Shown piece by piece: positions 4,528 to 41,305 of a stretch of 52,188 nt of DNA. The notes beneath the pieces are model-generated. The model saw nothing but the letters and a program-made list of their open reading frames with translations, was not told the origin of the DNA and did not search any database. This DNA is from a virus. The translations under genes and the position numbers were made by a program. The stretch is from the IMG/VR virus record IMGVR_UViG_3300027801_002518, positions 1-52,188 of that record. One strand, given 5' to 3'. The stretch's first letter is position 1. The number at the start of each line of letters is the position of its first letter.

Positions 4528-4535
4528 TATTTATA
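4528..4535 (+). promoter_or_regulatory. Putative late promoter TATTTATA
   Basis: TTATATTTATATAC lies 34 nt before the Hint-gene ATG. An AGGAAAG sequence near 4558-4564 could serve as a ribosome-binding site. Confidence 0.55.
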
Positions 4536-4569: not shown

Positions 4570-6927
4570 ATGAAAGGCACATTATTCTCAGCTGATTTTG
4601 TAAAAGATTCAGATGCAAACTTAAGACTTTTAGAATTAAATACCGATACGGGATTTATCACTAATACACTATCTACACGATTTGATTTTACAGCTTTTAT
4701 TGCCGTATTATCATCCAATTCTATTACTGAACTTGTAATTATATATAAGTCAATTCATGTAGAGTTCGTATCTTTACTTGAAACTACAATTGCCAATGAT
4801 GCAACCTTTATTACAACTGTAACAAAGCAAGAAGAATCCTCAAGTACAATATACCCAACTGCCCCGACAGATGCAGCTGAAAAGTTTATTTTAAGATTGG
4901 CATACGATGAAAATGCTTTATTTGATTCCACGTATTGTAAACAAAGAGCAAACGTTCAGAAGTTATTTTATGATAACTCTGCAACAGGTTCTATACCAGA
5001 ATTTTGGTATAGTGGTAGTGATTATCAAATTAACACACTTACAAGTGGTGTAAATGGACATGATATATTACCTGATTTCGTTGCAAAAACTAAAGAGGAA
5101 CAACACACTTCCCTAGACTTTATTAAAGTTGGTAACGCAGATTCATCATCTGCAGATAGAATATCTGATTTAATTGTAAACTTTAATGAGTTATCAAGTG
5201 GAGACAAAACAATTGAAAAATATCATTATCACCCATCTGATATTACTGATAATGGAAAAGTTTCAGGATTTAGAAGTGTTGGAATTGTATATGGAACTGA
5301 TATTGAGTTCGTATCTATTGGGGGATGGAGAATAGAAGCTTTCATTAGTTTACCAACAAGTGTTGATTTAGATTATTTAGATGCATCTAATTTAATAAGT
5401 TTATATGATAAAAAACATTATTTTCAATTAACATCAAATTGGCTTAGAACAACCGCTAAAGATGCAGTTTATGAAGGTTCTGTTATAATTAAAGCAGATG
5501 ACAGTGAAGTATCAGCCAAAGATATAATAGAAGATGATTTACTTAAATCTATGTACATAGAAGGATTGCCTGATACGGATGATGCAGAAGTATATAGAGC
5601 ATGGTTTGCAAGTGGTTCAACACTTCCAAGTGGTTCTTATGTTACTTCATCTATTGTAGAAAATTCATCAAACGTAATCGGAGATGATTATGGGGTAATT
5701 GGAGAAATAAAATTAGGTAATGACGAAAGAATATACACAACAATAACAAAACATTTCCTAACATATAGTACAGGTTCAAATGAATATAGATTCTTACAAC
5801 AATATCAATTAGATAAAGATGACCACTTCTTAGTAAATTCTGATGATAATAAAATACAAATAGTTGATAATAACGTTGCTATATTAGAATCTACTGAAAC
5901 TGGTTCTTTTTATAGAATTGATATTGAAGATACGGATTCTTTCTTCGTAAGTTCATCACAGAGTGCATTTATTGTTCACAATGCTCCTTGTTTTTTAGCA
6001 GGAACTAAAATTCATACTGAAACTGGAATAAAAAATATTGAAGATGTAAAAGTAGGTGAACTGGTAATGACATTTAATCATGATAATGATGCCTCAGAAT
6101 ATAAAGAAGTATTGGAAGTGATGTTTAAGGAAAATGAATGTGTTATAACTTATGTTTTTGAAGATGAAACTGAACTTACTGGTACTAAAGACCATCCAAT
6201 ATATATTGTAGGAAAGGGATACTCATCCTTTGAACCACAACAAACTCTTGATGATAGTGGATTAAATGTAGAACAAATAGAAGTTGGTGATGTTGCAAAA
6301 CTTTTTGTTGAAGGAGAAGAATATCCACACCTTCTTATTACTGAAATAAAAGAAGCTGGATTTGAAGATGTTTATAATCTAAAAACTATACAAGATAATC
6401 ATAACTTTTATGCTAATAATGTATTAGTACACAACAGAGCTTGTTGTTTTGCAGCAGGTACACAAATATCATTATCTAATAACGATACTAAAAATATAGA
6501 AGATATTATAATAGGTGATGACGTAGTAGGTTGGGATTCGGAAAAAGGCGAAAGAACAATAGGAAGTGTAATTGCACTAAACCACAAAGACACAGTTGGT
6601 TCTCATGCAGCTGCTTGTGAATCACTAGGAGATGCACCATCACTATATACAGTTAATGATACTGAAATAGAATTTACACCGGAACACCCATTCTTAACAA
6701 AAGAAGGTTGGAAATCATTAGTACCTGATAATGCACAAGAACCATATTTATCAGAACAAGAACCAAAAACATTAGTAGTTGGTGATGAAATTAACGTAGA
6801 TGATAATTGGGTAGAGATAAAATCAATTGAAGTTGTACGTTCTAATGCAGATGAAAGAGTATATAACTTTACAGTAGATGGAATACATTCTTATATTGCA
6901 AACGGAATCATAGTACATAATAAATAA
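4570..6927 (+). CDS. Large late protein with three tandem C-terminal Hint (intein/BIL-like) modules
   Basis: This is a 785-aa protein. Residues 1-298 are a beta-rich domain of unknown family. The rest reads as three consecutive Hint modules. Module 1 (about 299-471) keeps the GS-VII and terminal VHN blocks but has Ala299 where the nucleophilic Cys should be. Module 2 (474-622) has CFLAGT with Cys474, the block-B TKDH and terminal VHN. Module 3 (626-784) has CFAAGT with Cys626, TPEH and VHN, followed by only Lys785 and the stop. The residue after module 2 is Arg623, not Cys/Ser/Thr, so classic protein splicing is unlikely. Self-cleavage or transfer of the N-part to another nucleophile, as in bacterial intein-like or hedgehog proteins, fits better (inference). 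It follows a late-type motif and an AGGAAAG site and precedes a modification cluster. It is probably a virion or secreted surface protein. Confidence 0.75.
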   Translation: MKGTLFSADFVKDSDANLRLLELNTDTGFITNTLSTRFDFTAFIAVLSSNSITELVIIYKSIHVEFVSLLETTIANDATFITTVTKQEESSSTIYPTAPTDAAEKFILRLAYDENALFDSTYCKQRANVQKLFYDNSATGSIPEFWYSGSDYQINTLTSGVNGHDILPDFVAKTKEEQHTSLDFIKVGNADSSSADRISDLIVNFNELSSGDKTIEKYHYHPSDITDNGKVSGFRSVGIVYGTDIEFVSIGGWRIEAFISLPTSVDLDYLDASNLISLYDKKHYFQLTSNWLRTTAKDAVYEGSVIIKADDSEVSAKDIIEDDLLKSMYIEGLPDTDDAEVYRAWFASGSTLPSGSYVTSSIVENSSNVIGDDYGVIGEIKLGNDERIYTTITKHFLTYSTGSNEYRFLQQYQLDKDDHFLVNSDDNKIQIVDNNVAILESTETGSFYRIDIEDTDSFFVSSSQSAFIVHNAPCFLAGTKIHTETGIKNIEDVKVGELVMTFNHDNDASEYKEVLEVMFKENECVITYVFEDETELTGTKDHPIYIVGKGYSSFEPQQTLDDSGLNVEQIEVGDVAKLFVEGEEYPHLLITEIKEAGFEDVYNLKTIQDNHNFYANNVLVHNRACCFAAGTQISLSNNDTKNIEDIIIGDDVVGWDSEKGERTIGSVIALNHKDTVGSHAAACESLGDAPSLYTVNDTEIEFTPEHPFLTKEGWKSLVPDNAQEPYLSEQEPKTLVVGDEINVDDNWVEIKSIEVVRSNADERVYNFTVDGIHSYIANGIIVHNK
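5464..5982 (+). other. Degenerate Hint module 1 (no catalytic Cys)
   Basis: Residues 299-471. YEGSVIIKADD aligns with the CFLAGTKI opening of module 2 with Ala in place of Cys1. A His near ITKHFLTY matches block B but loses the TxxH spacing. The end RIDIEDTDSFFV...FIVHN matches the C-terminal Hint block. It looks like a decayed duplicate. Confidence 0.55.
5989..6435 (+). other. Hint module 2 (Cys474 to Asn622)
   Basis: All canonical blocks are visible: Cys1 in CFLAGT, IEDVKVGELV after the first strand, TKDH as block B, and HNFYANNVLVHN at the end. The +1 residue is Arg. This is a bacterial-intein-like arrangement without a splicing nucleophile downstream. Confidence 0.8.
6445..6921 (+). other. 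Hint module 3 (Cys626 to Asn784)
   Basis: Cys626 opens CFAAGTQI. IEDIIIGDDVVGWD and TPEHPF (block B) follow, and GIHSYIANGIIVHN ends the module one residue before the C-terminus. No C-extein exists, so only N-terminal cleavage, transfer or Asn cyclisation would be possible. Confidence 0.8.
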
Positions 6928-6942
6928 AAAGGAATAATTAAG

Positions 6943-7092
6943 ATGGCAAATCAAGAATTAAGTAAATACAAAAGTTTAAGTATAGATAATGTGAATAATC
7001 GAACTTCATATGATTTAACAACAGATGAATCGAGTAAAATAAATACTATATTAAGTAACTTTTTAACATACTTCAAGACAAAACACTCATAA
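6943..7092 (+). CDS. Small hypothetical protein, 49 aa
   Basis: It starts 15 bases after the Hint gene stop, behind an A/G-rich leader (AAAAAGGAATAATTAAG), and ends directly against the GTG of the next gene. The product is polar, serine/threonine-rich and helical in its C-terminal half (SKINTILSNFLTYFKTK). It may be a partner of the Hint protein or just a linker gene. No family is recognised. Confidence 0.55.
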   Translation: MANQELSKYKSLSIDNVNNRTSYDLTTDESSKINTILSNFLTYFKTKHS

Positions 7093-7740
7093 GTGATATA
7101 TGCAACTATGTGTGTTGGTACTAAGTGGTTAACTAAGTATCAAGACACAATAAATGCATTTTCATCAAAAAACCATTTGGAGATATTAACTGATAATCCA
7201 ACTGGTTTAATAGGTTCTCACATTACCTTATACGAAAGAAATGTATTTAGTTATTATGAAAAGGTAAACTTTATGTTTAATCTTTCAAAAAAATATAACG
7301 AAAGAATTACTTACATAGATATCGATTGGTTAAATGCCTACAATACAAATATAACATATGATGATACAACATTATATAGTTATGCTACATATGATTTATC
7401 AGATGAGAATATCCTAACCAAATGGTTTACCGAAAACGAATATCATTTTAGAGATAATTTATTATCACATATATCAGTTAATTCTAATATAGATTTTTAC
7501 ATACCAGAAGCATTGATTTCAATACCCCAATTAAATAATATAGATAATATACAACTTGATTTAAAAACAATACAACCAATAATTGAAAGTTGGTATGATT
7601 TAAAAAATAAAAACCCTAGATTTAGACGATATATTAAAAATGGAATAGGTTATGCAGAGGGATGGGGAGTATCAGCAGTGTGTAAAAAATATAAAATACC
7701 AATCGATAAAGTAGATTGGAAAAGACACGCTTTGCTATGA
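7093..7740 (+). CDS. Putative GT-A-like glycosyltransferase
   Basis: The 215-aa product begins with GTG directly after the previous TAA. Its layout suggests a small GT-A nucleotide-sugar transferase: an N-terminal strand (YATMCVGTKW), a middle segment EKVNFMFNLSKKYNERITYIDIDW whose DID would be the metal-binding DxD, and a C-terminal Gly-rich YAEGWGVSAV acceptor-like region. The family match is weak by eye. The context, upstream of two 2OG oxygenases, a sulfotransferase and an acetyltransferase, supports a glycan or protein-decorating role. Its stop overlaps the next ATG. Confidence 0.45.
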   Translation: MIYATMCVGTKWLTKYQDTINAFSSKNHLEILTDNPTGLIGSHITLYERNVFSYYEKVNFMFNLSKKYNERITYIDIDWLNAYNTNITYDDTTLYSYATYDLSDENILTKWFTENEYHFRDNLLSHISVNSNIDFYIPEALISIPQLNNIDNIQLDLKTIQPIIESWYDLKNKNPRFRRYIKNGIGYAEGWGVSAVCKKYKIPIDKVDWKRHALL

Positions 7741-8234
7741 AACTATCTACACAGAAATTTAATGAACTTATTAACGAGTTAGAAAAAACACCATTAATTA
7801 ATGAGACAGAATGGAAAAAGAAAATAAGTATAACAGGTGATTGGGCACCTGTTAGTTTAGACAAGAGTTGGATTACTACAACTAAAGTTATACATTATTC
7901 ACTTAGAAATCCAAATCTTAATAAAATACTTGAAGAATTATCAGGTAGAAGTATAAAGGATTGTTTAACCCTACATACAGTAGAAGCAGTACCACCACAA
8001 GCAACAGTTGCACATACAGATAAATATTCTGAAATAACATTAAATATTTTACTTGAAGATGATTGTGAGGGTGGGTATTTATATGTAGAAGGTGAGAAGA
8101 TAGAGGAATATAAAGAAAAGGGAGATTATGTAGTATATGAGGGAAGAAAACAAAAACACTCAGTAACTGCAATTGAAAAAGGTAAAAGAAAGGCTTTAAT
8201 TGTTTGGTTTGGTCCTGTTAAAAGTGTAATATAA
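7737..8234 (+). CDS. 2-oxoglutarate/Fe(II)-dependent oxygenase
   Basis: I chose the ATG at 7737, which forms an ATGA overlap with the upstream stop, rather than an in-frame TTG at 7716. The 165-aa protein has the double-stranded beta-helix signature: His93-Thr-Asp95 (AHTDKYSEI), His141 (KQKHSV) and basic residues Arg151/Lys152 positioned to bind 2-oxoglutarate, with EGGYLYVEG typical of prolyl-4-hydroxylase-like (P4Hc) proteins. Such enzymes hydroxylate protein side chains, sugars or nucleobases; the substrate here cannot be told. A second oxygenase follows 3 bases downstream, so the pair may act in sequence. Confidence 0.8.
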   Translation: MKLSTQKFNELINELEKTPLINETEWKKKISITGDWAPVSLDKSWITTTKVIHYSLRNPNLNKILEELSGRSIKDCLTLHTVEAVPPQATVAHTDKYSEITLNILLEDDCEGGYLYVEGEKIEEYKEKGDYVVYEGRKQKHSVTAIEKGKRKALIVWFGPVKSVI

Positions 8235-8237
8235 ATA

Positions 8238-8762
8238 ATGATATTTGAAGACTCCATACCATTATTTAATTCAACTGAATTAGATATTATTAAATCTAGT
8301 TGGAAAGATGAAAGAGCAAATGTTATCTTCCAAAATAACTATAAAGATGTATCTTACCATGAGACTGTTGTAAATGATTTACCACAAGAATATGTAGATA
8401 GATTTTTAGATTGGATTGAAAGTAAGATTGGAAAGAAGATTTATAATAGAAAAAAATATGATTTACTCTTAAAACGATTTAAAGAAGGAGAATATTTGGA
8501 TTATCACACAGATAGTGATTATAGTAATACGAGTTGGAACGTTGAATATGCTGCTGGGTTTCATGTAAATGATGATTATGAGGGTGGTGAATTTGTTGTA
8601 TATGAAAATGGAAAAGAAAGAGTTATAGGAAATCAAATAGGAGTTCCATACATATTCTCAGCTGATACCCATCATAAAATAAATAAAGTTAAATCAAAGA
8701 TTAGATATAGTATAATCTTATTTGTATATAATAACTCCATTGATACACCCACATTAATATGA
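8238..8762 (+). CDS. 2-oxoglutarate/Fe(II)-dependent oxygenase (second copy)
   Basis: This 174-aa protein has the iron site His90-x-Asp92 (DYHTDSDYS), a distal His at 145/146 (DTHHKI), and Arg156 as the likely 2-oxoglutarate ligand (KIRYSIILF). The DYEGGEFVVYENG segment matches the EGGYLYVEG block of the previous gene, so the two share a fold, though overall similarity is low and recent duplication is unlikely. It resembles the P4Hc/PiuC-type branch. The stop overlaps the start of the sulfotransferase gene (ATGA), pointing to translational coupling within the cluster. Confidence 0.78.
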   Translation: MIFEDSIPLFNSTELDIIKSSWKDERANVIFQNNYKDVSYHETVVNDLPQEYVDRFLDWIESKIGKKIYNRKKYDLLLKRFKEGEYLDYHTDSDYSNTSWNVEYAAGFHVNDDYEGGEFVVYENGKERVIGNQIGVPYIFSADTHHKINKVKSKIRYSIILFVYNNSIDTPTLI

Positions 8763-11061: not shown

Positions 11062-11544
11062 TTGAAAAAACAAATAGTTTACATTGATATGGATGGAGTA
11101 ATAGTTGATTTTGGAAAAGCAATCCAAGATTGGTTCGATACTCATCCACATTTGGAAGAAAGATATAAAACATTCCCTGACCACATCCAAGGATTATTCA
11201 GAACCGCTCCACCAATACAGGGAGCAATTGAAGCAGTAACGAAATTACACGAAAGTGGTAAGTATGAATTATTCATTGCATCAGCAGCTCCTTGGGGAAA
11301 TCCTCAATCAAATACCGATAAAAGATTTTGGATTGAAGATTACTTCGGAAACTTATTCCACAAGAAAATGTTTATAACCCACAGAAAAGATTTATTGATG
11401 GGAGACTATCTTATTGATGATAGATTAAAGAATGGAGCTGGTGAGTTTACTGGTAAACTATTAAGGTTCGGCCTAGATTGGGAAAATGATAACAAACCAA
11501 ATGAATATCCAACATGGAAAAGTATATTAGATTATTTATTGTAG
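11062..11544 (+). CDS. 5'(3')-deoxyribonucleotidase-like HAD phosphatase
   Basis: The start is TTG at 11062, placed so that the family's N-terminal strand KKQIVYIDMDGVIVDF is complete; the next ATG would destroy the catalytic DMDGV motif. The 160-aa size, the DxDGV nucleophile motif, the FIASAAPW motif II and the C-terminal GDYLIDDR acidic motif match the NT5C-type cytosolic deoxyribonucleotidases. It would dephosphorylate dNMPs and so tune the nucleotide pool together with dCMP deaminase and ThyA. It lies behind a host-type promoter and its 3' end overlaps the lipoprotein gene by 31 bases. Confidence 0.82.
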   Translation: MKKQIVYIDMDGVIVDFGKAIQDWFDTHPHLEERYKTFPDHIQGLFRTAPPIQGAIEAVTKLHESGKYELFIASAAPWGNPQSNTDKRFWIEDYFGNLFHKKMFITHRKDLLMGDYLIDDRLKNGAGEFTGKLLRFGLDWENDNKPNEYPTWKSILDYLL

Positions 11545-11930
11545 GATTATTATTGGTAGGTTGTTCCGTTGATGAATTTGATGATATAACAATAATACCA
11601 ACAATAACCTTAGATGGTAGATTACCAATGGACAGTAATGGATATTACCATTTACAATTAAATTCAAACACTAATCAAACAACACACCGTATCACAGGAA
11701 GTGTTTTAAACACCACAGAACCAACTAAAGTTACTTGGGATAGTAATCTTGTTTGGGAGCATAATGGAGAGGTTGTACCAACGATAAACAGTACATCTTA
11801 TGTAACCGAAAGTGGAGAAATTAATACAATGATTGCTCCTATATATGGTATGATAACTGATACATTAAGAGTTAAAGCAACCATTAATGAATGGAATATC
11901 ATACAAACACTTAATATAGTTTTAGAGTAA
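11514..11930 (+). CDS. Phage-encoded lipoprotein with acidic export-like signal
   Basis: The 138-aa product begins with a basic n-region, a hydrophobic core (LFIVGLLLVG) and a lipobox LVGC with Cys17. The residues after Cys17 are SVDEFDD, an acidic stretch resembling the lipoprotein export signal that sends Bacteroidetes lipoproteins to the cell surface. The mature part is beta-rich and Thr/Asn-rich, possibly an immunoglobulin-like domain. It overlaps the nucleotidase gene by 31 bases and is expressed from an early host-type promoter. A superinfection-exclusion or receptor-masking role is plausible but inferred. No family is recognised. Confidence 0.75.
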   Translation: MEKYIRLFIVGLLLVGCSVDEFDDITIIPTITLDGRLPMDSNGYYHLQLNSNTNQTTHRITGSVLNTTEPTKVTWDSNLVWEHNGEVVPTINSTSYVTESGEINTMIAPIYGMITDTLRVKATINEWNIIQTLNIVLE

Positions 11931-28770: not shown

Positions 28771-30783
28771 ATGGCACTAAATAGTATAACAAAAAAATCG
28801 AATCAAGGTAGGGACATAAAGTACCTTAATAAAGATTTCTCTGGATTTAGAGAAAATCTAATAGATTATGCAAAAACATATTTCCCACAAACTTATTCTG
28901 ATTTCAACGAAGCCTCTCCTGGAATGATGTTCATAGAAATGGCATCATATCTTGGAGATGTTCTTTCATATTATACAGACGATACATTAAAAGAATCTTT
29001 AATGTTATATTCTGAAGATAAACAAAATGTAATTGCATTGGGGGAGTATCTTGGGTATAAGCCAAAAGTAACATCACCTTCAATCGTAAGACTAGCAGTA
29101 TATCAAACCGTACCATCAACCGGAGTTGGAGATGAAGTAAGAGCGGATTTGGATTATTGTTTAAGAATTAAAGAAGGAATGGTAGTAGTATCATCAAATT
29201 CTGGAACAAGATTTAGAAGTACAGAACTACTTGATTTTTCAGTAGAAAACGAAAGAGAAATTTCAATATATCAAAGTAATGAGGGAACACCTACAACGTA
29301 TTTATTAAAAAAATATGTAAATGCAATGTCTGCTGAGTTAAAAGAAATTACTTATAATTTTGGTAATTCACCTCAACAATTTTCTAAAATACAACTTGGT
29401 GATTCTAATGTAATTGATATATATGATGTAAGAGATTCTAATGGAAACAAGTGGTATCAGGTACCTTATTTAGCACAAGAAATGGTGTACGTTCATTTTG
29501 CAAATTCAGAACAAACCGATAAAGATTTGGCTCAATTTAAAGATTCAGTACCAAACGTTCTTAAAGTTTTAAAAACATCGAGAAGATTTACAACTAAAGT
29601 AAATGATGATAATACAACAACACTTGTATTCGGTGCAGGTAGTTCTTCATCTGATGAAACTCTAATACCTAACTTTAAAAATGTAGGATTGGGATTAAAT
29701 TCTTCTATTGATAAAATGGGTGCATCATTTGACCCTTCAAGCTTTCTAAAAACGAAATCATATGGTCAGGCCCCAACCGGAGAGTTTACAGTATCTTATT
29801 TAGTGGGTGGTGGAGTTAAATCAAATGTAGGTGTTGGTGAATTAAATAATCTTGAAACAATTGCATTCGATGATGATATTTCATCTTTTCAAGAAGCAGA
29901 AAAGGCTCTTTATAGAGTATCTAAAAATTCTGTTGCTGTTGATAATGAAGAACCAGGAACTGGAGGAAAAGGGGCAGATACGATTGAAGAAATTAGAGAA
30001 AATGCACTAGCAAACTTTGGTTCACAAAATAGAGCAGTAACTCGTAAGGATTACCAAGTAAGAGCATTATCATTACCAGCAAAATATGGTGGTATCGCTA
30101 AAGCGTATTGTGCACCGGATGGTGAGTTGGATAATAACTCTCCTGCTTCTATATTAGCCAATCAAACTTCACTTAATGAGTTTACAGGATTAGTTCAGAA
30201 ATTGGGTGATACTAAACGAACAGAACAAGAAATAAAAGATGAAGTAATACGATTCTTGGGTGGTAAGAAATCAAATGTATCTGAAAAGAATAATCCATTT
30301 GCAATTAATTTATACATACTTGGATATAATTCGGAAAAAACTTTAGATACTTTAAATCAGGCAGTTAAGGAAAATTTAAAAACATATATTAGTGAATATA
30401 GAATGTTGACTGATGGTGTTAACTTAATAGATGGATTTATTATAAACATCGGTGTTGACTTTGAAATCAGAGTTTACGGTGGATATAACAAAAGAGAGGT
30501 GTTGGTTAAAGTTCAAAAAGAATTAGCAAAATACTTTAATATAGATAATTGGACGTTTAACATGGCAATCAATATATCGGAAATAGAATTATTAATCGCA
30601 GGTATTGAAGGAGTTCAATCTGTACCAAAATGTGAAATTACTAACAAGTGTTTAGGAAACTACTCAAGTCACTCATATAATATACAAGATGCAACTAAAG
30701 GTAAAATGGTTTATCCATCTTTAGACCCATCTATATTTGAAGTGAAGTATCCAAACAAAGATTTAAAAGGGAGGGTTATATAA
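28771..30783 (+). CDS. gp6: Baseplate wedge subunit gp6 (gpJ-like)
   Basis: The 670-aa protein matches T4 gp6 in length (660 aa) and in order. The N-terminal block DIKYLNKDFSGFRENLIDYAKTYFPQTYSDFNEASPGMMFIEM and the helices around SYYTDDTLKESLM are followed by the gpJ-like middle (RENALANFGSQNRAVTRKDYQVRALSLPAKYGGIAKAYC) and a C-terminal beta domain. It forms the dimeric ring of the wedge around the central hub. It ends in a TAATG overlap with the next gene. Confidence 0.92.
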   Translation: MALNSITKKSNQGRDIKYLNKDFSGFRENLIDYAKTYFPQTYSDFNEASPGMMFIEMASYLGDVLSYYTDDTLKESLMLYSEDKQNVIALGEYLGYKPKVTSPSIVRLAVYQTVPSTGVGDEVRADLDYCLRIKEGMVVVSSNSGTRFRSTELLDFSVENEREISIYQSNEGTPTTYLLKKYVNAMSAELKEITYNFGNSPQQFSKIQLGDSNVIDIYDVRDSNGNKWYQVPYLAQEMVYVHFANSEQTDKDLAQFKDSVPNVLKVLKTSRRFTTKVNDDNTTTLVFGAGSSSSDETLIPNFKNVGLGLNSSIDKMGASFDPSSFLKTKSYGQAPTGEFTVSYLVGGGVKSNVGVGELNNLETIAFDDDISSFQEAEKALYRVSKNSVAVDNEEPGTGGKGADTIEEIRENALANFGSQNRAVTRKDYQVRALSLPAKYGGIAKAYCAPDGELDNNSPASILANQTSLNEFTGLVQKLGDTKRTEQEIKDEVIRFLGGKKSNVSEKNNPFAINLYILGYNSEKTLDTLNQAVKENLKTYISEYRMLTDGVNLIDGFIINIGVDFEIRVYGGYNKREVLVKVQKELAKYFNIDNWTFNMAINISEIELLIAGIEGVQSVPKCEITNKCLGNYSSHSYNIQDATKGKMVYPSLDPSIFEVKYPNKDLKGRVI

Positions 30784-31844
30784 TGTACTATTTCGTAACA
30801 GCATCAAAAGATGCAACAATTTATTTACAACAACCTACCCAGAATACGGGTAGAGATGAGATATTAGAAATATCTAAAACATACTATGGTAATTTAAAGG
30901 ATGTTTCTCATTCTTTAATTCAGTTCAATACAAATGAAATTTCTGCTTCAAACGCAAGTGGAGATATTTCAGTACATTCTGCAGAGTTAATACTTAGAGA
31001 ATGTGATTCAATTGAAATACCTTCTGATTATACATTATACGCTTATCCAGTTTCCCAATCATGGGATGTTGGTATTGGTACTCGATTTGATAAAATATCA
31101 ACCGATAGTGTTAGTTGGAATAAACGAAACTCATCAACGAATTGGCTAGTTGGTTCAGCATCATTAGAAAGTACAGGTTCATTTAACGGAAAGGGTGGAA
31201 TGTGGTTAACTGGTTCAGTTGCAACTCAATCATTCTCATATTCATCAACCGATGTATCAATGAACGTATTAGAACCCATCAAAGCATGGGTATCTGGTTC
31301 AATCACTAATAATGGTTGGATATTAAAACACGATTCTATATTAGAAAATGATACCGAAGATTACGGACAGTTAAAATTCTTTTCAAAAGAAACAAACACT
31401 ATCTATCAACCCAAGTTAAGAATAGGGTGGGATGATTCTGCTTATGCTACCGGTTCTCTTACTGAACTTACCTCTGATGATATTCATGTAACGTTTAAAA
31501 GATTAAAGACTAGATATGTACGAGGAAGTAAACCTACAATTAGAGTTTTTGCAAGAGAAAAGTATCCGCTTAAATCTTATACTAATCTTTATGCATATAA
31601 TGATATTAAATATTTACCATCAACTGTATATTATCAAATAAAAGATGTAGTAACAGGAGAAATTGTCGTTCCATTTGATGATAACTATACTAAAATTAGT
31701 TGTGATGCAAACGGACACTTCTTTAAACTTAATTTAACGAATTGGGAAATAAATAGAGACTATTATATTGAAATAAAAATAAATAGAAATGGTGTAGTTG
31801 AATACTTTGAAGATAAAGATTTAACTTTCACAGTAGAAATGTAA
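30783..31844 (+). CDS. Baseplate/tail protein with DNRLRE-like N-domain
   Basis: The 353-aa protein overlaps the gp6 stop. Residues 1-200 read like a jelly-roll carbohydrate-binding or DNRLRE module (ASKDATIYLQQPTQNTGRDEILEISKTYYG; HSLIQFNTNEI; SAELILRECDSIEIPSDYTLYAYPVSQSWD), typical of extracellular surface-attached domains. A second beta domain occupies 230-353. Placed next to gp6, it takes the position of the T4 gp7/gp8 wedge proteins but shows no similarity to them. It may be an attachment or peripheral wedge protein (inference). Confidence 0.65.
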   Translation: MYYFVTASKDATIYLQQPTQNTGRDEILEISKTYYGNLKDVSHSLIQFNTNEISASNASGDISVHSAELILRECDSIEIPSDYTLYAYPVSQSWDVGIGTRFDKISTDSVSWNKRNSSTNWLVGSASLESTGSFNGKGGMWLTGSVATQSFSYSSTDVSMNVLEPIKAWVSGSITNNGWILKHDSILENDTEDYGQLKFFSKETNTIYQPKLRIGWDDSAYATGSLTELTSDDIHVTFKRLKTRYVRGSKPTIRVFAREKYPLKSYTNLYAYNDIKYLPSTVYYQIKDVVTGEIVVPFDDNYTKISCDANGHFFKLNLTNWEINRDYYIEIKINRNGVVEYFEDKDLTFTVEM

Positions 31845-31846
31845 AA

Positions 31847-33151
31847 ATGGGTTTATCAGATAAATTTAGAATTAACGAATTAGCCAATAAAGGCTCTAAG
31901 GTAATCAAACGAGAAGATTCGTCTGGTACACTTCTTGTGCAAAAAAAAGACAACAAACAAGTTCCTCCTTCTAAAAAAAATAAACCATTCGTTCCATTTG
32001 GTCAAAAACCAATCAAAGGAAAACAAATTTCCCCAAAATATAAATCAGATTGGGTAGATACTGATGAGTTTAATACTATTCCTGATGGTCAAGAATCCTT
32101 TGCTGGTGAAACATCTGGATATTTAGAGAAACCAAAATATAACGAAGAAGAATTACAGAAAGCTATAGATGTAAAAGTTGATGAGTTAATAAAAAAACAA
32201 AAAGCAAAGAAAGTCCCATATATTCGTCTATCAAAATATAATAAACTTTGGGATAATTTTAATAAGAAGATATCTGAGTTAGAAGATTTAACAATACAAT
32301 TAGAAGAACAAATATCAAAGAACGAAGAGTTACAAAGTAAAATTGATTCTATCAACGTTCGATTGGATGCGGCAAAATTACAACAAGCAGCAGCTGAAAA
32401 TGAAACACAGGCTTCAAATGACAGACATACTACATTATTAACCAACTTCCAACAATCTCTTGTTAAGGGTACTAAGGAGGGTATAGAGAGAGTTTCTCTT
32501 ACTGCACAAGTACGAGGGTTACAGGCACAAAAGATAACGTTAGACAATCTTCTAAAAGCTCAAAGAGAATTAACAAAAGCTGCAACAGCTCAAACCGAGG
32601 CATTAGCTAGTCAAATTACAGCTCAACAAAGTCAAATAGCTGGAGCAGCAGCAGAAACCACAGCCGTAGCCGCTGGTTTAGTACCATTCCCAGGTAATGA
32701 GGCCTTTTATGGTATTACCCAAACAGGAGAATGGACAGAATATGATATATCATGGACAACTGCCGCAAAGGGTACACGTCGACCAGGTAATGGTGGTGTA
32801 TTTAAACTACAAAACCTACGAGATGATAAAGCACAGATAATAGCGTTAAAAGTAAAAAATATAACAGGACATTTAAAAGGATATGGCCCATTTGGATTTG
32901 GAAGTGATGATGGAAAACCATCAGCAACCACAGGAGCTATTAATATTGAACAAGGGTCTATGTTGGAGATTCCATTCTTTTTCAATAAATCAATAGGTGG
33001 TAATAATAACCCAGCCCCCAAGAAGAAATGGATTACATGGGGAAGTGCAAGAGATTACGATGGTCAATTTAAACTTGAAGTTAAATTTTCTGATAACACA
33101 ACTCAAACATCAAGTCAATTATCATATAAGATTAGAAAAAATAAAGGATAA
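31847..33151 (+). CDS. Coiled-coil baseplate/fibre protein, 434 aa
   Basis: A basic, disordered N-terminus (KKDNKQVPPSKKNKP) precedes a long coiled coil at about 105-275 (LTIQLEEQISKNEELQSKI...QAAAENETQ), which is alanine/glutamine-rich, and a globular beta C-domain (PGNEAFYGITQTGEWTEYDISW...). This is a trimeric-stalk-with-head plan common in tail fibres and peripheral baseplate proteins. It starts 2 bases after the previous gene. No family is recognised. Confidence 0.65.
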   Translation: MGLSDKFRINELANKGSKVIKREDSSGTLLVQKKDNKQVPPSKKNKPFVPFGQKPIKGKQISPKYKSDWVDTDEFNTIPDGQESFAGETSGYLEKPKYNEEELQKAIDVKVDELIKKQKAKKVPYIRLSKYNKLWDNFNKKISELEDLTIQLEEQISKNEELQSKIDSINVRLDAAKLQQAAAENETQASNDRHTTLLTNFQQSLVKGTKEGIERVSLTAQVRGLQAQKITLDNLLKAQRELTKAATAQTEALASQITAQQSQIAGAAAETTAVAAGLVPFPGNEAFYGITQTGEWTEYDISWTTAAKGTRRPGNGGVFKLQNLRDDKAQIIALKVKNITGHLKGYGPFGFGSDDGKPSATTGAINIEQGSMLEIPFFFNKSIGGNNNPAPKKKWITWGSARDYDGQFKLEVKFSDNTTQTSSQLSYKIRKNKG

Positions 33152-33154
33152 GAA

Positions 33155-35239
33155 ATGGCAATAAAAGGATTTAAAGATATAATCGATAGAAAAGGGTACA
33201 AGGTTGACTCTGAAGATAGAAAGGTATTTGAAAAAGAAATATCTAAATCTAACTTTGGGTTGGGTTGTTCTGATATGATCGAATTTATCTTATTCGATTC
33301 AAGTGAAAATAAATTACCACAAGGAGATGATGGTAAATTGGTACGATATATAAATTTAGATGATAGTAATATAAAAGATTACTTCATAATATCCGATAAT
33401 CAATTTACCAAAAAGAAAGATGGTACTCCTGAATTTATTGTAGATTTAGAAAAACTAATTAATGAGGCAGGATATTCAAACGGAATATTCAAAACTCAAG
33501 TAACTCTATTAAATAGAAGAGCTGGTGTTGATGGGAGTGTTGATAATTCTTTATGGATACACGAAATCTCTCCTTCACGAACTGAAATTAGAATTTTACC
33601 AAATAGAGCAAAGGGAGATAATACTGATTTAGAAAAAAGATTATCAGTTTTTCTTGATAATGGAACATTTAGAGATGATGTAATTTATTATATTAATGTT
33701 TTTATAGATAAATTAAATTTAGAAAAGATACTTAGAACTTTCTTATTTTCCAAAGGAACAGAAGATGCTGGTATAACTTATATTAATTTAATTAAAACAG
33801 AATTTAAAATAGAAAGTTTTGAAATTCTATTAAATAGAGTTAAAACCAAATTCGTGGAATCAATGAAACATTATTCTGAACGAAGAAATTGGAAGATTAA
33901 TGATATAAACTACGGTAAACCTCTTGGTGATAAAGATGATTGTATTGATTTATCAATACCACAATTAGAAAGAGATGCACAACAATCTTTAATTAATTGT
34001 ATTGATTTTTATTTACCAAAACGTAATATCGTAAAAGATAATGTTTTAAGTAAAGAAGAACAAATTACACTTGATAAAGTTAAACGAATATTAAAAACAA
34101 CCACATCTAAATCAATATATGATTCAACTGTTCCAGATAAAGTAAATGCAAGAATAAGAGGTTGTACTGATCCTAACGCAGAAAATTATAATCCATTGGC
34201 ACAAGATAACGATGGTAGTTGTATATATAAAATTGTTAAAGATGAAAAAGATGAAATAGAAGAGGAGGACGACCCATTTGATGATATAATTAGAGGATGT
34301 ACTAGTCCTAAAGCTCTTAATTACAACCCAAATGCAACTGTCGATGATGGAAGTTGTAAATTTAAAGGTGTTATACCATCGATTTCCAAAGTATATTATG
34401 TTTGGTCTGCAAAGGCAACAATGAAATGGAAACAAAATGGTAAACAGAAGTTCACTGGTGGAGTTGAATATCAAAAATTTTCTATTACTCATGATGTTGG
34501 TGCGTTTAAATTTTCAGGTGATGTTAGAGAAGTTCCTAAGTTTAAAATCGCCATTAAAAAAACTATAAGTTATTTAATTAAAAATATTGCTAAAACCTAT
34601 GGCCGAGGAAGCAGCATCTTCGCTGGAAAAAGACCAAGGAGCGTACTATATAAAGATGCACTTGGAAATCTAAAAACAAGTAGTGTATTATTCTCTGGTG
34701 ATTCAACAACCATTTGTGCACAAAAAGGAAGTGTAATTGCTGGTTCTGGTATAGAAGTGACTATCTATGGACCATGTGGAACACCCTACACACCTCCTAA
34801 GCCTAAAACACCTATACCAGAAGACGTTGTAATTGAAGAAGTTGTAATTGAAGGATGTACTAATCCTATAGCTCTTAATTTCAATCCAAGTGCAACGGTC
34901 GATGATGGAAGTTGTACATTTAAACCAAAGGTGGTGGAAACATTTACAGAAGAAGAAGATATAAACGGACCAAGAGGTAGTGGATTTGATGATGAGTTTG
35001 TAATGATAAATGAAGATGGTGTAGCAGTTCGTCCTGAAGGCAATACTGACGGAGGACTTCCAGGAGACCTAGTAGGGAATGGTACAGGAGATATATCACA
35101 AGGAGGTGGTTATGGCCCTATTATAATAAAAGCAGAACCACCTACAAAATCTGGTGGAGGAGAAAGCAACCGTAAAGATATAGAACGTCTATCAGGAAAC
35201 GTGGTTCTTGAAAAAGCACCCACACCAAAAGAGAGATAA
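33155..35239 (+). CDS. Baseplate/tail protein with three GCTDP-type repeats
   Basis: The 694-aa protein has an N-terminal 320-residue alpha/beta part, then three copies of a Cys-flanked repeat (336-356, 381-401, 567-587). Each begins GCTxPxAxNYNP, or NFNP in the third, and ends DGSC. Between them is a beta domain (VYYVWSAKATMKWKQNG...). The C-terminus is Gly/Asp-rich and disordered. The repeat is widespread in secreted surface proteins of Bacteroidetes and is probably a small disulfide- or calcium-stabilised spacer, so the gene seems to have borrowed a host-type module. It is likely a peripheral wedge or fibre protein. Confidence 0.7.
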   Translation: MAIKGFKDIIDRKGYKVDSEDRKVFEKEISKSNFGLGCSDMIEFILFDSSENKLPQGDDGKLVRYINLDDSNIKDYFIISDNQFTKKKDGTPEFIVDLEKLINEAGYSNGIFKTQVTLLNRRAGVDGSVDNSLWIHEISPSRTEIRILPNRAKGDNTDLEKRLSVFLDNGTFRDDVIYYINVFIDKLNLEKILRTFLFSKGTEDAGITYINLIKTEFKIESFEILLNRVKTKFVESMKHYSERRNWKINDINYGKPLGDKDDCIDLSIPQLERDAQQSLINCIDFYLPKRNIVKDNVLSKEEQITLDKVKRILKTTTSKSIYDSTVPDKVNARIRGCTDPNAENYNPLAQDNDGSCIYKIVKDEKDEIEEEDDPFDDIIRGCTSPKALNYNPNATVDDGSCKFKGVIPSISKVYYVWSAKATMKWKQNGKQKFTGGVEYQKFSITHDVGAFKFSGDVREVPKFKIAIKKTISYLIKNIAKTYGRGSSIFAGKRPRSVLYKDALGNLKTSSVLFSGDSTTICAQKGSVIAGSGIEVTIYGPCGTPYTPPKPKTPIPEDVVIEEVVIEGCTNPIALNFNPSATVDDGSCTFKPKVVETFTEEEDINGPRGSGFDDEFVMINEDGVAVRPEGNTDGGLPGDLVGNGTGDISQGGGYGPIIIKAEPPTKSGGGESNRKDIERLSGNVVLEKAPTPKER
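34160..34915 (+). repeat. Three dispersed GCTDP...DDGSC protein repeats
   Basis: Copies at 34160-34222, 34295-34357 and 34853-34915, 21 codons each. Copies 2 and 3 are nearly identical (ALNYNPNATVDDGSC versus ALNFNPSATVDDGSC) and also closely similar in DNA, suggesting internal duplication. Confidence 0.8.
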
Positions 35240-35242
35240 TAA

Positions 35243-35250
35243 TATTTATA
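35243..35250 (+). promoter_or_regulatory. Putative late promoter TATTTATA, 3 nt before an ATG
   Basis: TAATATTTATAGAT runs directly into the ATG at 35254 of the 1774-aa gene, leaving no ribosome-binding site. Confidence 0.5.
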
Positions 35251-35253
35251 GAT

Positions 35254-38200
35254 ATGGCACGAAGAAAACCAAGAGGATTACCAACAGATTCAAACTTTAG
35301 TGATGAAGTATTTGAAAATAACGGCACGCCTATTCTTTCTGGAGGAGGATTTAGTGATAACGCTATAATTAACCAAGGAGAAGCACAAGTACCAGTTCTT
35401 AATCCAGGACCTATTATAATTCAAGATCCAGTGTTTAGGACTAAGTCTATTCCAATATTTAAAAAAGACATAATTAAAAATGACTTTCCAATACTAATAC
35501 CAAGACCAAAACCACCAACTCCATTATCACCGAGCAGACATATAACAGTTTCCATCTTCTCTAAGACAGGTGGAAGTATTCTTATAAATGGAGTAGATAC
35601 TCTTAAATCTCCCACAAACCTTTCTGGGAAATTTCGTTATACTGGAAAAGAATTATTAAAACCAAAATATTTCAAGGTAATAAAAAGTGGATATGCATGT
35701 AAGGAAGAATATAAATTATATTCTACTAAAAAACGACTTATAAAAACAATAAGACCATTAATTGATAATTCCGATGACTTTATTGTACGTGATGAACTAA
35801 TTCCAATTAGAAAAGATGACTTTCGCGTAGAAAACTTTAAATTTAATAATGGAAGGACGTTCGGAGGTATTGGTGATGTTTATTTAGGATTTACAAGACC
35901 AGTAACATCAATTGTTGCAAAAAAACCATCACCAATTGGTAGTATTGCATATGATTACTATGAATTTATATTGGAAAAGAATGGTAAAATAGTTCCTCTT
36001 TCAGAGCAAATACAACCTATTACAAATACAATAAATCCTCTCATGTTTGTTAAGTTGGATTTCAACATGACAAATATTATTATAAACGATGATATTGAAG
36101 ATGATATAGTTGATACTCCGATTACGGTAAATATAGAGAGTTTTGTATCTGCAGATAATATTATACAATATAAAACATCTTGGGGATCCAGTGGATTTCT
36201 TCTAGATGATGATGATATTGATTTAAAACATACAATTAGGGATGGACAAAAAGAAACACCATCTATTAAATTTACATCAATTGGTATTTCGGATTTTACA
36301 CATACAGTAACGTTTAAATATAACACACCACACGTGAGACGTGATGTAATCAATAAAACAAAAGAGTTTACTCTTGATTTAATTCCTGGTCAAACTAACA
36401 TAGTAGTTAATGCTATAAAAGTTGCAGTGGAGGATTCCCCATTTACACCATCTATAAAAGCAGATATTACTAACGTTAAAGTTAATCTTGCTATAAGAAA
36501 TGGAAGAGTAAATATACCATATAAAAGTATTAATGCAGATAAAGTAATTTATACTCTTGGTAAAAGAAAAAGAGAAATAGAGTTAAGTGGTAGTTTAACA
36601 TTAACCAAGTCTGATTTCCCCAACGGAGTAGGTAACTACATAATTTATTTACAAGCCATATCCAATGGTGGTGGTAGTAGTATAATAGAAAAAATATATG
36701 TAACAGTTGGAAGTAGAGAATTTATACCTGGTCCTGATATTACAAACATAAATTATCCACAAAATATTGTTGGTGCTGATTTTAAAGGATTTAATGTTCC
36801 CTTTGATATTAGTTGGCAATCTATTAATACAAATTATATTAAAGTTTACGCTGGAAAGAAAACCAACAGTACATCTTTAGGACAATTTCCTGCATCTGGA
36901 GTATCATCGTTTAATGTTGATGATGTTCTAAGGAAGTTAAATATTATAAAAATAAGACCTGCAGAAGTTAATGGTGTATATCAGTTTAATTTAATTTTAA
37001 TACCATATAACGAAGAAGGTGATTCGGTAACTGAAGGTAAACATGAACAAATAAGTATTACATTTGATAAAGGAAATTTAACAATCCGAAGAGGAACTGT
37101 TATTTCTGATATTAGAAGTGCATTTGCAAAAGAATTTGACCCAACAATTTTTCGAGAATCAATATCACCATTTTTAACTCATTATTTACATTTAGGTGAA
37201 GGTAATAATAAATTGGTTGCTACTTGGGGTATTGATACAGATACACTATCTACCTTTAAAGATGACTTAGACAATAATACTAGGAAAAAAACGAAAGAAG
37301 AGAAATCATTAGTATTAAAACTATACGAACCACTTCCTCCTAGTGTTAATTTAAATGATACTCTTTGGATATCAAAATTACAGGCAATACCTTTAATTGA
37401 CCAAATCACCATAGTTGATGATGTTTCACAAAACTGTACACCACTTACTCCAAACTTTGCTTTGGAAACTAATGATGTAATAGGTTATCAGATTTTAGAT
37501 GATTTGATATCAAGTGGATCTACCACATCTACGGATGTTGTTAATACATTTATATCTTCTTCTGAATTTTCATTGGATAATTTGAATTTACAATTTGTAA
37601 CTACGGATACAATTTTAATAGAAACAGCTGGTAGTGGAAATTATTATCAAGAACATCCAAATCAATCAATCGATTGGAGTAATTTTGTTAAATATTCATC
37701 TGCAGAAGAGAGAGTTGAAAACTTTGTTTATAAAGTTAAATTACTACAATCATATGAGGACCGATATGGTGGATTGGTATCTGGTAGTTCTATTGATTTC
37801 GGAAGTGGAACTTCAAGTTCAATCACAGGTTCTGCAACTTCATCGATTGCTATTAAGAATGAAGCCACAAGAACTCTTGGTAAAATAAATGATGTTAAGA
37901 AAGGATTTGATTCTTTTGAAAAATTCTTATTTACAAGTTCATCTGTAAGTGGATTGACATGGCCAGGAGCTGGACAAAATCAACTATCTGCTTCAACTGA
38001 TTCAAGTGTAACAACTTGGTATGATATTGTTATTTTAGATGCAACTACTTATGATGAAGGAAATAGTTCACGATTAGTTAATAATTTACCTGCTCATATA
38101 CAAAATGATCCAGATGGTTCTTCTTTTCCATTATTCTTTGATATGATTGGACAACACTTTGATGTGTTATGGGCTCATATTAAAGGTATCAATCAAACAA

Positions 38201-40578
38201 ATAAATTAGAACATAAGTTTGAAAAAGGAATTAATGATAAGTTAATTTATCATATGTTGGAATCACTTGGTTGGGATGCTGATATGGGTGCACAATCTCA
38301 ATTACTTTGGGAATATGCATTTGGCAAACATTCTGATGGAACAGTAGTTGCTGAAATGACCGGCAAGGAGAGACAAAATGAAATTTGGAGAAGATTATTA
38401 AATAACTTACCATATCTTCATAAACACAAAGGTACTAAGAGAGCAATATCAGCAGCATTAAGTTGTTATGGTATTCCACAATCATTACTTACTGTTATGG
38501 AGTTTGGAGGCCCACAAGATACACAATCAGCTGGTACAACTAAATTTACATTTGAAGATAGAACGGCATCTATTAACTTTGCAAGTTCATCAAACGCAAT
38601 AACCGTACCATGGAAATCTCATAACGGAAAATATCCAGATTCAGTTGAACTTAGATTACATACTGACCAAAGACAAGACCAACAGATAGTAAGTGGTTCT
38701 GGTTGGAATCTTGATATAGATTATCCTGAATCAGGAACACTTGGAAAACTTACATTAAATGTATTAAGTGGTTCTACATGGGTATCATCTTCAACTGGAA
38801 AAGTTGCATTCTTTAATGATGAATACACACAAATTGTTGTAAATAGAATTACAGGAAGTGTAAATGATACATTTGATGTTTATCTAAAAGAAGGTTTCCA
38901 AGAAAGAATACGAAATCATACCTCAACTACATTTACAGTACCAAGTGGAAGTAGTGGTTGGAATAATGGACATGAATTAAAAATAGGTGGTTCTACTTTA
39001 ACTGGTTCTCTTGACGAATTCAGATTATGGTCTGCACCACTAAGTGAATCTGTTATTTCAAATCACACATTATTACCAGATGCAATAAATGGTAATCACA
39101 TCACATCATCTACATCTGATTTAATTTTCAGATTAGATTTTGAATATCCAAAAGATAGAGTTGCTGATACTTCTATTAAAAACGTATCAATTGATACTAC
39201 ATATGAAACATTTGCAACCGCTTCCAACTTTGCAGCTAGTTCTACATATCCATATCATTATACTACATATGATAGAGATGTAACCGCGGAAGTTCCTTCA
39301 AGTGGAATTAGTTTTGGTAACAAAGTAAGATTTGAATCTCAAACAAAAATATTAGATTTATCATATAGACAACGAGCAACTAAAAAATCATTTGATCAAT
39401 CTCCCCTTGATTCTGATAGATTAGGATTATTCTTCTCTCCAATAAAAGAGATTAATATGGATATCATGAAATCACTTGGTGGATTTAATATTGATAATTA
39501 TATTGGTGACCCTTCTGATGATTATTCTTCTGAATACAAAGAACTAAGGGATTTACGAACTTATTATTTCAATAGATATAATTTAAATTTATCTGAATAT
39601 ATTCAATTAGTTAGATATATTGATAAATCTCTTTTTGATGTATTAGAATCCCTTGTACCGGCAAGAGCTAAAGTATCGAGTGGATTATTAATCGAACCAC
39701 ATATTCTTGAACGAAGTAAAGTAGAAAGAAGACCTACAAGTGCATCAATGCACAACTATTCCTCAACAGGAGTTGATATACAAGAAGATATTTCTGTAAA
39801 ATCAACAAATGAGGGTGTAGTTGGTATTGTAAGTGCTTCACAATCTACTATATTAAGTGGTGATAAACATCACTTCGATGGATTCATATCTTCATCAGAA
39901 CCAACCATGGCAGGTTCAAATAATTCTTATGATTCTACGATAAGTGCCAATGAAGACATAACCCAACAAGGATTTATCACAGTAAATAGTGGTTCTGATA
40001 TGGGTGGTATTTCTATTAAAATAGATGCAGAATTCCAAACTCCATTACAAGGCGAGTATGAATCATCTATGTTTACTCAAGTAGGAATGGATATGAATTC
40101 ATTAACGGTAGCTGGATTTGGATTATATGCAGAAAACGGACATGCTATTGTAACCAAATTAGATAAAGATAATAATTTTACAAAAGTAAGAAAAAGAGTA
40201 GATGTTATAACAGAAAGTTATACAGTAGATATTCCACAGAACATCGACCCACTGGATTCTTCAAAGGGTAGAGAGTTTGTAACACAAACACTTACCAGAA
40301 AGAAACTAAATTTAAGAAACTTTAATCAATCTGGTTCACTTGCAGCGAATAACGTTGTTAGTATTGTACCATTAAATGGGTATGTACCATATCATTATAG
40401 AAATGTGGGTGATTTAACAAGTGGAATGGAGAATTCGTTCTTTAATGGTTCTAAACAAACATCAAGTACAACTTTAGATGGGGGTGTAGCTGTTCAAACG
40501 TTCACAACTAATCCAAATACATTGAGAGTTTCTGATAGTGGAAGAGGAAGTGGTGAACCGATATTAGAGGTTGATTGA
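35254..40578 (+). CDS. Giant baseplate wedge/tail protein (1774 aa) with gpI-like and LamG-like domains
   Basis: This is the longest gene in the window. Residues 1-650 are repeated beta-sandwich domains (Ig-like). About 660-1080 is helical and contains FPLFFDMIGQHFDVLWAHIKGI and RRLLNNLPYLHKHKGTKRAISAALSCYGIP, which resemble the P2 gpI/tail protein I core that links wedges to fibres. Residues about 1105-1275 look like a concanavalin/LamG-type beta-sandwich (FEDRTASINFASSSNAITVPW; LTGSLDEFRLWSAPLS). A further helical segment (LRDLRTYYFNRYNLNLSEYIQLVRYID) and a beta-rich C-terminus follow. By position and size it is the functional counterpart of T4 gp7 (1032 aa), greatly expanded with a probable glycan-binding insert. 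Confidence 0.72.
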   Translation: MARRKPRGLPTDSNFSDEVFENNGTPILSGGGFSDNAIINQGEAQVPVLNPGPIIIQDPVFRTKSIPIFKKDIIKNDFPILIPRPKPPTPLSPSRHITVSIFSKTGGSILINGVDTLKSPTNLSGKFRYTGKELLKPKYFKVIKSGYACKEEYKLYSTKKRLIKTIRPLIDNSDDFIVRDELIPIRKDDFRVENFKFNNGRTFGGIGDVYLGFTRPVTSIVAKKPSPIGSIAYDYYEFILEKNGKIVPLSEQIQPITNTINPLMFVKLDFNMTNIIINDDIEDDIVDTPITVNIESFVSADNIIQYKTSWGSSGFLLDDDDIDLKHTIRDGQKETPSIKFTSIGISDFTHTVTFKYNTPHVRRDVINKTKEFTLDLIPGQTNIVVNAIKVAVEDSPFTPSIKADITNVKVNLAIRNGRVNIPYKSINADKVIYTLGKRKREIELSGSLTLTKSDFPNGVGNYIIYLQAISNGGGSSIIEKIYVTVGSREFIPGPDITNINYPQNIVGADFKGFNVPFDISWQSINTNYIKVYAGKKTNSTSLGQFPASGVSSFNVDDVLRKLNIIKIRPAEVNGVYQFNLILIPYNEEGDSVTEGKHEQISITFDKGNLTIRRGTVISDIRSAFAKEFDPTIFRESISPFLTHYLHLGEGNNKLVATWGIDTDTLSTFKDDLDNNTRKKTKEEKSLVLKLYEPLPPSVNLNDTLWISKLQAIPLIDQITIVDDVSQNCTPLTPNFALETNDVIGYQILDDLISSGSTTSTDVVNTFISSSEFSLDNLNLQFVTTDTILIETAGSGNYYQEHPNQSIDWSNFVKYSSAEERVENFVYKVKLLQSYEDRYGGLVSGSSIDFGSGTSSSITGSATSSIAIKNEATRTLGKINDVKKGFDSFEKFLFTSSSVSGLTWPGAGQNQLSASTDSSVTTWYDIVILDATTYDEGNSSRLVNNLPAHIQNDPDGSSFPLFFDMIGQHFDVLWAHIKGINQTNKLEHKFEKGINDKLIYHMLESLGWDADMGAQSQLLWEYAFGKHSDGTVVAEMTGKERQNEIWRRLLNNLPYLHKHKGTKRAISAALSCYGIPQSLLTVMEFGGPQDTQSAGTTKFTFEDRTASINFASSSNAITVPWKSHNGKYPDSVELRLHTDQRQDQQIVSGSGWNLDIDYPESGTLGKLTLNVLSGSTWVSSSTGKVAFFNDEYTQIVVNRITGSVNDTFDVYLKEGFQERIRNHTSTTFTVPSGSSGWNNGHELKIGGSTLTGSLDEFRLWSAPLSESVISNHTLLPDAINGNHITSSTSDLIFRLDFEYPKDRVADTSIKNVSIDTTYETFATASNFAASSTYPYHYTTYDRDVTAEVPSSGISFGNKVRFESQTKILDLSYRQRATKKSFDQSPLDSDRLGLFFSPIKEINMDIMKSLGGFNIDNYIGDPSDDYSSEYKELRDLRTYYFNRYNLNLSEYIQLVRYIDKSLFDVLESLVPARAKVSSGLLIEPHILERSKVERRPTSASMHNYSSTGVDIQEDISVKSTNEGVVGIVSASQSTILSGDKHHFDGFISSSEPTMAGSNNSYDSTISANEDITQQGFITVNSGSDMGGISIKIDAEFQTPLQGEYESSMFTQVGMDMNSLTVAGFGLYAENGHAIVTKLDKDNNFTKVRKRVDVITESYTVDIPQNIDPLDSSKGREFVTQTLTRKKLNLRNFNQSGSLAANNVVSIVPLNGYVPYHYRNVGDLTSGMENSFFNGSKQTSSTTLDGGVAVQTFTTNPNTLRVSDSGRGSGEPILEVD

Positions 40579-40619
40579 TAAATAATAATTCAAAAATAAA
40601 CAATTTTATAAAATCGTTA

Positions 40620-40627
40620 TATTTATA
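40620..40627 (+). promoter_or_regulatory. Putative late promoter TATTTATA
   Basis: GTTATATTTATATATTG, 28 nt before the ATG at 40656, with an AAGAGGAAAA stretch in between as a possible ribosome-binding site. Confidence 0.6.
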
Positions 40628-40655
40628 TATTGAATAACAAGAGGAAAATTTAATT

Positions 40656-41285: not shown

Positions 41286-41305
41286 TAAACGGAGAATAAA
41301 ATAAA

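Follow-up and report, generated by a model that had tools for sequence, protein, structure and literature searches.

Several described systems resemble parts of the locus presented here. Bacterial intein-like (BIL) domains, such as BIL2 of Tetrahymena BUBL1 (6y75, 6tmm) and the C. thermocellum domain 2lwy, have the Hint fold without a conserved splicing acceptor. The pretoxin-HINT domains of polymorphic toxins also have this fold, with an Asn-based C-terminal release. A different type of protein is represented by glutathionylspermidine synthase (GspS), YgiC and YjfC. Proteins with this type of fold are ATP-grasp enzymes, or their relatives, which join a carboxylate to an amine. In the annotation of E. 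coli K-12, YgiC and YjfC are peptide–spermidine ligases. In graspetide and other ATP-grasp RiPP systems the ATP-grasp gene has a gene for a short peptide beside it, and tailoring enzymes may be encoded in the vicinity. The R2K ATP-grasp peptide ligases of phages have been proposed as protein modifiers (PMC4431377, PMC7824862). In the parts of these two papers that were compared by text, neither a Hint fusion nor a micro-ORF is found.

The window that we have analyzed is a stretch of 52,188 nucleotides, from IMG/VR virus record IMGVR_UViG_3300027801_002518. Its most interesting part is a two-gene unit, formed by an ATP-grasp/Hint gene and a micro-ORF which follows it (Table 1). This unit looks like a system for the modification of proteins or peptides which has not been described before. 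In the literature searched, we found no self-processing ATP-grasp ligase combined with a small peptide of its own.

The original prediction described the large gene as coding for a late phage protein which ends in three tandem Hint modules. All its residue calls have been checked: translation, Pfam, PDB and fold searches agree with it in the length of the open reading frame, in the three modules and in every residue named. With the whole protein, the Pfam model Intein_splicing gives 54.9 bits (cut-off 35.8), and the cut-offs of Hint, Hint_2 and PT-HINT are also exceeded. Since, in addition, module 2 matches the bacterial intein-like domain 2lwy (E=8.5e-7, phmmer against PDB chains), the Hint content of this protein is not due to chance. 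The Hint modules also score 70.9 bits with the Pfam model AXH (ataxin-1; cut-off 33), and ataxin-1 chains are weak phmmer matches; possible explanations are a relationship between AXH and Hint domains or a broadened model.

Table 1. Features of the ATP-grasp/Hint locus. Positions are those of the window.
Feature	Positions	Strand	Details	Evidence
TATTTATA element, putative promoter	4528..4535	+	35–42 nt upstream of the start codon	enrichment across loci
ATP-grasp / pseudo-Hint / Hint / Hint protein	4570..6927	+	785 aa	open reading frame
ATP-grasp amide-ligase-like domain (N-part)	4570..5439	+	residues 1–290	AlphaFold fold matches, invariant columns
Module 1, pseudo-Hint	5464..5982	+	residues 299–471; Ala299, H470-N471	Hint fold, BIL2 profile match, residue composition
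Module 2, Hint	5989..6435	+	residues 474–622; Cys474, T539-K-D-H542, H621-N622, +1 Arg623	Pfam, PDB, conserved in relatives
Module 3, Hint	6445..6921	+	residues 626–784; Cys626, T703-P-E-H706, H783-N784, then Lys785 and stop	Pfam, PDB
Micro-ORF, conserved partner peptide	6943..7092	+	49 aa, MANQELSKYKSLSIDNVNNRTSYDLTTDESSKINTILSNFLTYFKTKHS	same small ORF downstream in 69/69
2OG-Fe(II) oxygenase-like ORF (cluster 0)	7716..8234	+		blastp cluster shared with 8238–8762; no Pfam match alone
2OG-Fe(II) oxygenase-like ORF	8238..8762	+		PF13640 26.8 bits (cut-off 27); family enriched near the gene

The unit is found in large uncultured phages which belong to one family. An initial search of IMG/VR gave three full-length homologues, with 49–58% identity and identical architecture. 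Profile scans of IMG/VR with the N-part gave 74 loci, and later more. Together with the window protein, these make 69 distinct complete proteins, all the others being from IMG/VR contigs. A search of 50,697 phage records gave no homologue of the N-part, and neither did GTDB genomes at the sensitivity of the scan used. None of the cultured phages and cellular genomes covered has it. The N-part and the pseudo-Hint region (module 1) are present in all the family homologues found. They are followed by 0, 1, 2 or 3 active-looking Hint modules, as counted with a regular expression for Hint starts which overlooks some modules visible by eye, for example in L018, L023 and L064. This number shifts fast: L022 has three active-looking Hints and L072 has two, with N-parts which are 83% identical. 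Three loci (L073–L075) have no active-looking Hint, yet they keep the ATP-grasp domain, the pseudo-Hint and the micro-ORF, which therefore appear as the core of the unit. More Hint-like matches are found in the same phages, at 80652–80777 of the L006 record (in an 839-aa frame) and at 192812–193054 of the L009 record (in a 447-aa frame).

The N-part had been considered as generic virion or structural cargo. Here the original prediction is not supported as it stands, for an ATP-grasp ligase fold and invariant residues of catalytic type are found instead; what it said about Hint folds, the missing splicing acceptor and homing inteins stands. The AlphaFold model of the N-part (pLDDT 87) was built from 56 sequences, which reach down to 34% identity with that of the window. 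It has 12 fold matches in PDB (E<=1e-3), all of them YjfC, YgiC, glutathione synthetases (one from a nematode, glutathione synthetase-like) or trypanothione synthetase. A predicted ATP-grasp fold of the GspS/YgiC type is well supported by this model. TM-scores with YjfC and YgiC are modest (0.40–0.43 of query length). Pfam gives nothing above threshold, and the cut-off of the GspS family (PF03738) is not reached. PDB sequences give no match above threshold, and a BFVD fold search gives no match.

D9, E22, N24, D26, R109, D113, E114, D119, K173, K186 and R235 are invariant in the 56 sequences. The spacing of D9, E22 and N24 is that of D102, E115 and N117 in YgiC (D-x12-E-x-N). In a profile comparison with two E. 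coli proteins, hhalign aligns the N-terminus of the N-part, ADFVKDSDANLRLLELNTDT (SADF...LRLLELNTDT), with YgiC (DLAW...) at low probability. The D/E/N triad of GspS/YgiC is thus present, with a pairing of residues which is our reading of this alignment; we take its metal role to be that known in GspS. Such a fold, together with invariant residues of catalytic type, suggests that amide-bond chemistry may lie in the N-part and not in the Hints. Unlike GspS, YgiC and YjfC, the phage N-part is short (about 290 aa) and fused to Hints, and no link with spermidine or with an amidase is seen.

Module 1 lacks Cys1 and the block-B TxxH; the terminal HN is retained in most relatives. The original prediction gave it the shape of a Hint, and its AlphaFold model (pLDDT 84) agrees. 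All 40 fold matches with E<=1e-3 are Hint, intein or Hedgehog structures, the best being 6y75 (E=6e-7) and 2lwy (TM 0.82 by target length). On its own, the module is under the cut-off of Intein_splicing (E=0.017); a profile of 43 module 1 sequences matches the Tetrahymena BIL2 domain (E=4e-7). With hhalign, this profile gives no significant match to module 2 alone, so the homology of module 1 rests on the BIL2 profile match and the AlphaFold fold. The module had been called decayed, with Ala299 in place of Cys. The substitution is there, together with the Hint shape and the terminal HN, but it is not a recent loss: the Cys1 position has Gly in 39 of the 43 aligned sequences, Ala in 3, Ser in 1 and Cys in none. 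Module 1 is an old, conserved pseudo-Hint, because Cys1 is missing in all 43 and the terminal HN is retained in most.

Modules 2 and 3 carry Cys1, the block-B TxxH and the terminal HN, as predicted, and these residues are kept in most modules 2–4 across the family. Module 3 alone is over the cut-off of Intein_splicing (39.5 bits), and its matches among PDB chains (phmmer) include DnaB inteins. The position after the terminal HN (+1) is occupied by R, K, Y, L, F, Q, I or W in 36 internal modules, and by C, S or T in none. In 45 proteins the last module is followed by a single Lys and the stop codon (VHNK). Among the remaining viral Hints matched by this C-terminal pattern, 95 of 97 carry C or S at +1 (there were five K/R cases; four of them, from two contigs of the window protein's family, were excluded, and L332 counts among the two exceptions). 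A variant last module is found in L014, L018, L020, L021, L023, L049, L063, L078 and L229. It ends in SGLGD(N)..., often followed by LLN..KRQ, which replaces VHNK, and the HN lies inside the module.

Splicing by these Hints is ruled out by established intein chemistry, since an acceptor residue is missing and a single Lys is all there is of a C-extein. A homing intein, already discarded in the original prediction, is excluded by the absent acceptor residue, the absent C-extein and the lack of an empty-site homologue: no homologue without the pseudo-Hint region was found. An N-S acyl shift may still take place at Cys1, as may the cyclisation of Asn. The modules share with BIL domains the Hint, a non-nucleophilic +1 residue and variable flanks, and the solved structures nearest to modules 1 and 2 are BIL domains. 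The BUBL locus has several BIL copies per protein, as in the phage array. Unlike BIL domains, this array is C-terminal to an ATP-grasp domain and has a micro-ORF as its partner; its first copy is universally Cys-less, and HN-Lys-stop is its usual end. Pretoxin-HINT shares with it the Hint with Asn-based release (PF07591 match). A polymorphic toxin with Hint release is excluded, as no domain, and therefore no toxin, is found C-terminal to the last module.

A conserved ORF of 43–53 aa (about 47 aa) is found directly 3' of the gene in all 69 distinct complete homologues; the original prediction did not mention it. It is contained in a gap of near-constant length, about 140–240 nt, which follows the gene in all loci. 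With leave-one-out profiles, from which relatives more than 60% identical were removed, the micro-ORF ranks first in all 50 loci tested, with E values from 1e-10 to 1e-21. It is single-copy in 12 large records, always at this locus. A profile scan with a diverse alignment gave nothing, and a closer alignment succeeded; searches seeded with the peptide lead only to contigs with the gene, or to pieces whose length does not allow a judgement. This pairing of the two genes, like the domain assignments, is a direct result of the computation. The peptide has an invariant Tyr, then Lys in more than 90% of 50 sequences (alignment A5), from which two distant relatives found later differ. It also has a conserved C-terminal stretch, N-F-I-x-Y-F-K-x-K-H. 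Its extreme C-terminus varies (KHS, KHL, KHT, SVE, NVQ or ALG), and this speaks against a fixed end that would serve as acyl donor. No convincing relative was found in Pfam, PHROG or PDB. The alignment, examined by eye, does not contain the repeated core motif of a graspetide precursor. Among the features of the locus, the micro-ORF is the likeliest clue to the substrate of the putative ligase.

In 40 of the 56 distinct loci the sequence TATTTATA lies no more than 75 nt ahead of the gene, as compared with 49 of the 809 other ORFs in the same loci; it precedes 1 of the 135 downstream oxygenases. In the window it is also found upstream of the + strand genes at 9402, 25402, 27667, 35254, 40656 and 42616, some of them structural. 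In related phages it precedes, behind a terminator-like sequence, the gene adjoining gp23. It is likely to be a phage-specific promoter element. A single operon led by the ATP-grasp/Hint gene would fit these data, because the element precedes this gene and almost never the oxygenases. Late expression of the gene is plausible, since the element is common to structural genes; the late protein guessed at in the original prediction thus has some indirect support.

In 12 records with a total of 2.3 Mb, 19 of the 39 matches to 2OG-Fe(II) oxygenases lie within 5 kb of the gene, where 1.9 would be expected (binomial p about 4e-15, a simple test which ignores the relatedness of the records). Each of the 12 records has at least one of them near the gene. 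Genes for radical SAM (about 350 aa), SET and carbamoyltransferase-like proteins, and others, also recur nearby, less regularly. Elsewhere in the window, a T4-like structural region is found at 28771–42532, with a baseplate wedge match at 28771–30783; the 1774-aa ORF at 35254–40578 has no clear PHROG match. Lipoprotein-like ORFs at 11514–11930, and their neighbours in L001–L003, have N-termini rich in CS-D/E, which suggests, by eye only, a Bacteroidota host.

The complete mechanism that we propose, on which our own judgement is evenly divided, would join an ATP-dependent amide ligase with a self-cleaving Hint tail. The N-part would be the ligase, of the glutathionylspermidine-synthase/YgiC type, and the 49-aa peptide, in an operon with the gene, would most likely serve it as a substrate, either as acyl donor or as amine acceptor, or be an obligatory partner. 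The 2OG oxygenases of the operon may modify the same target. In the Hints, Cys474 and Cys626 would each give a thioester and Asn622 and Asn784 would cyclise; the outcome would be cleavage, or the N-part would be passed to an external nucleophile. The covalent transfer to virion or host-surface amines put forward in the original prediction may also occur. In this scheme we infer that the ligase is active, that the peptide is its substrate and that the Hints cleave. A bolder version, which we offer only tentatively, is a new phage system for the conjugation of peptides or proteins, in which the ligase, with its own Hint acyl-transfer array, would attach or tailor the 43–53 aa peptide, and the oxygenases would act on the same product. 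Several points speak against the ligase mechanism described first. The N-part is under the PF03738 cut-off, with low TM-scores and no PDB sequence match. The activity of the Hints is read from sequence, from which it cannot be deduced. The oxygenase cluster could mark a general modification island.

The constant adjacency of the micro-ORF may also mean a structural partner, and not a substrate. This would be the case if the N-part were a catalytically dead ATP-grasp domain, used as a virion or scaffold protein which the Hints free during assembly. A promoter element common to structural genes, which suggests late expression, and the shortness of the peptide, together with its conserved C-terminal stretch, are consistent with such a role, and ligase activity is a prediction. 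Nevertheless, D9, E22, N24, K173, K186 and R235 are invariant down to 34% identity, which is unusual for a dead enzyme, and most of the relatives' loci sit among modification enzymes, not among head or tail genes. We consider this explanation unlikely.

Another possibility is a phage-encoded RiPP-like pathway, in which the micro-ORF would code for a precursor tailored by the ATP-grasp enzyme, by the 2OG oxygenases and, where present, by radical SAM and SET proteins, to give a secreted or host-acting product; the Hints would mature the enzyme or the product. The short ORF always adjoins the ATP-grasp gene, oxygenases are nearby in all 12 records, and many loci have radical SAM and SET genes. 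These last genes are not universal, however, and the peptide is conserved over much of its length, without a clearly variable core. Unlike a graspetide system, the ligase is GspS-like, not microviridin- or RimK-like, and the core motif is missing. In our opinion a RiPP-like pathway is quite unlikely. Finally, it is very unlikely that the tandem Hints are selfish or degenerate passengers, with no biochemical role for the enzyme. Their copy number changes quickly and can be zero, and one copy is Cys-less in all aligned relatives. On the other hand, most modules 2–4 keep Cys1, TxxH and HN, no homing endonuclease is present, and every homologue keeps the pseudo-Hint region.

In summary, the putative ligase with its Hint tail and the micro-ORF form a defined two-gene unit, which could be expressed and assayed, and 69 variants found in nature, in which the number of active-looking Hints goes from 0 to 3, are available for comparison. 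If the proposed mechanism is true, non-splicing Hint domains would be naturally coupled to an amide ligase, and these phages would have an ATP-grasp ligase which processes itself and works with a small peptide dedicated to it.
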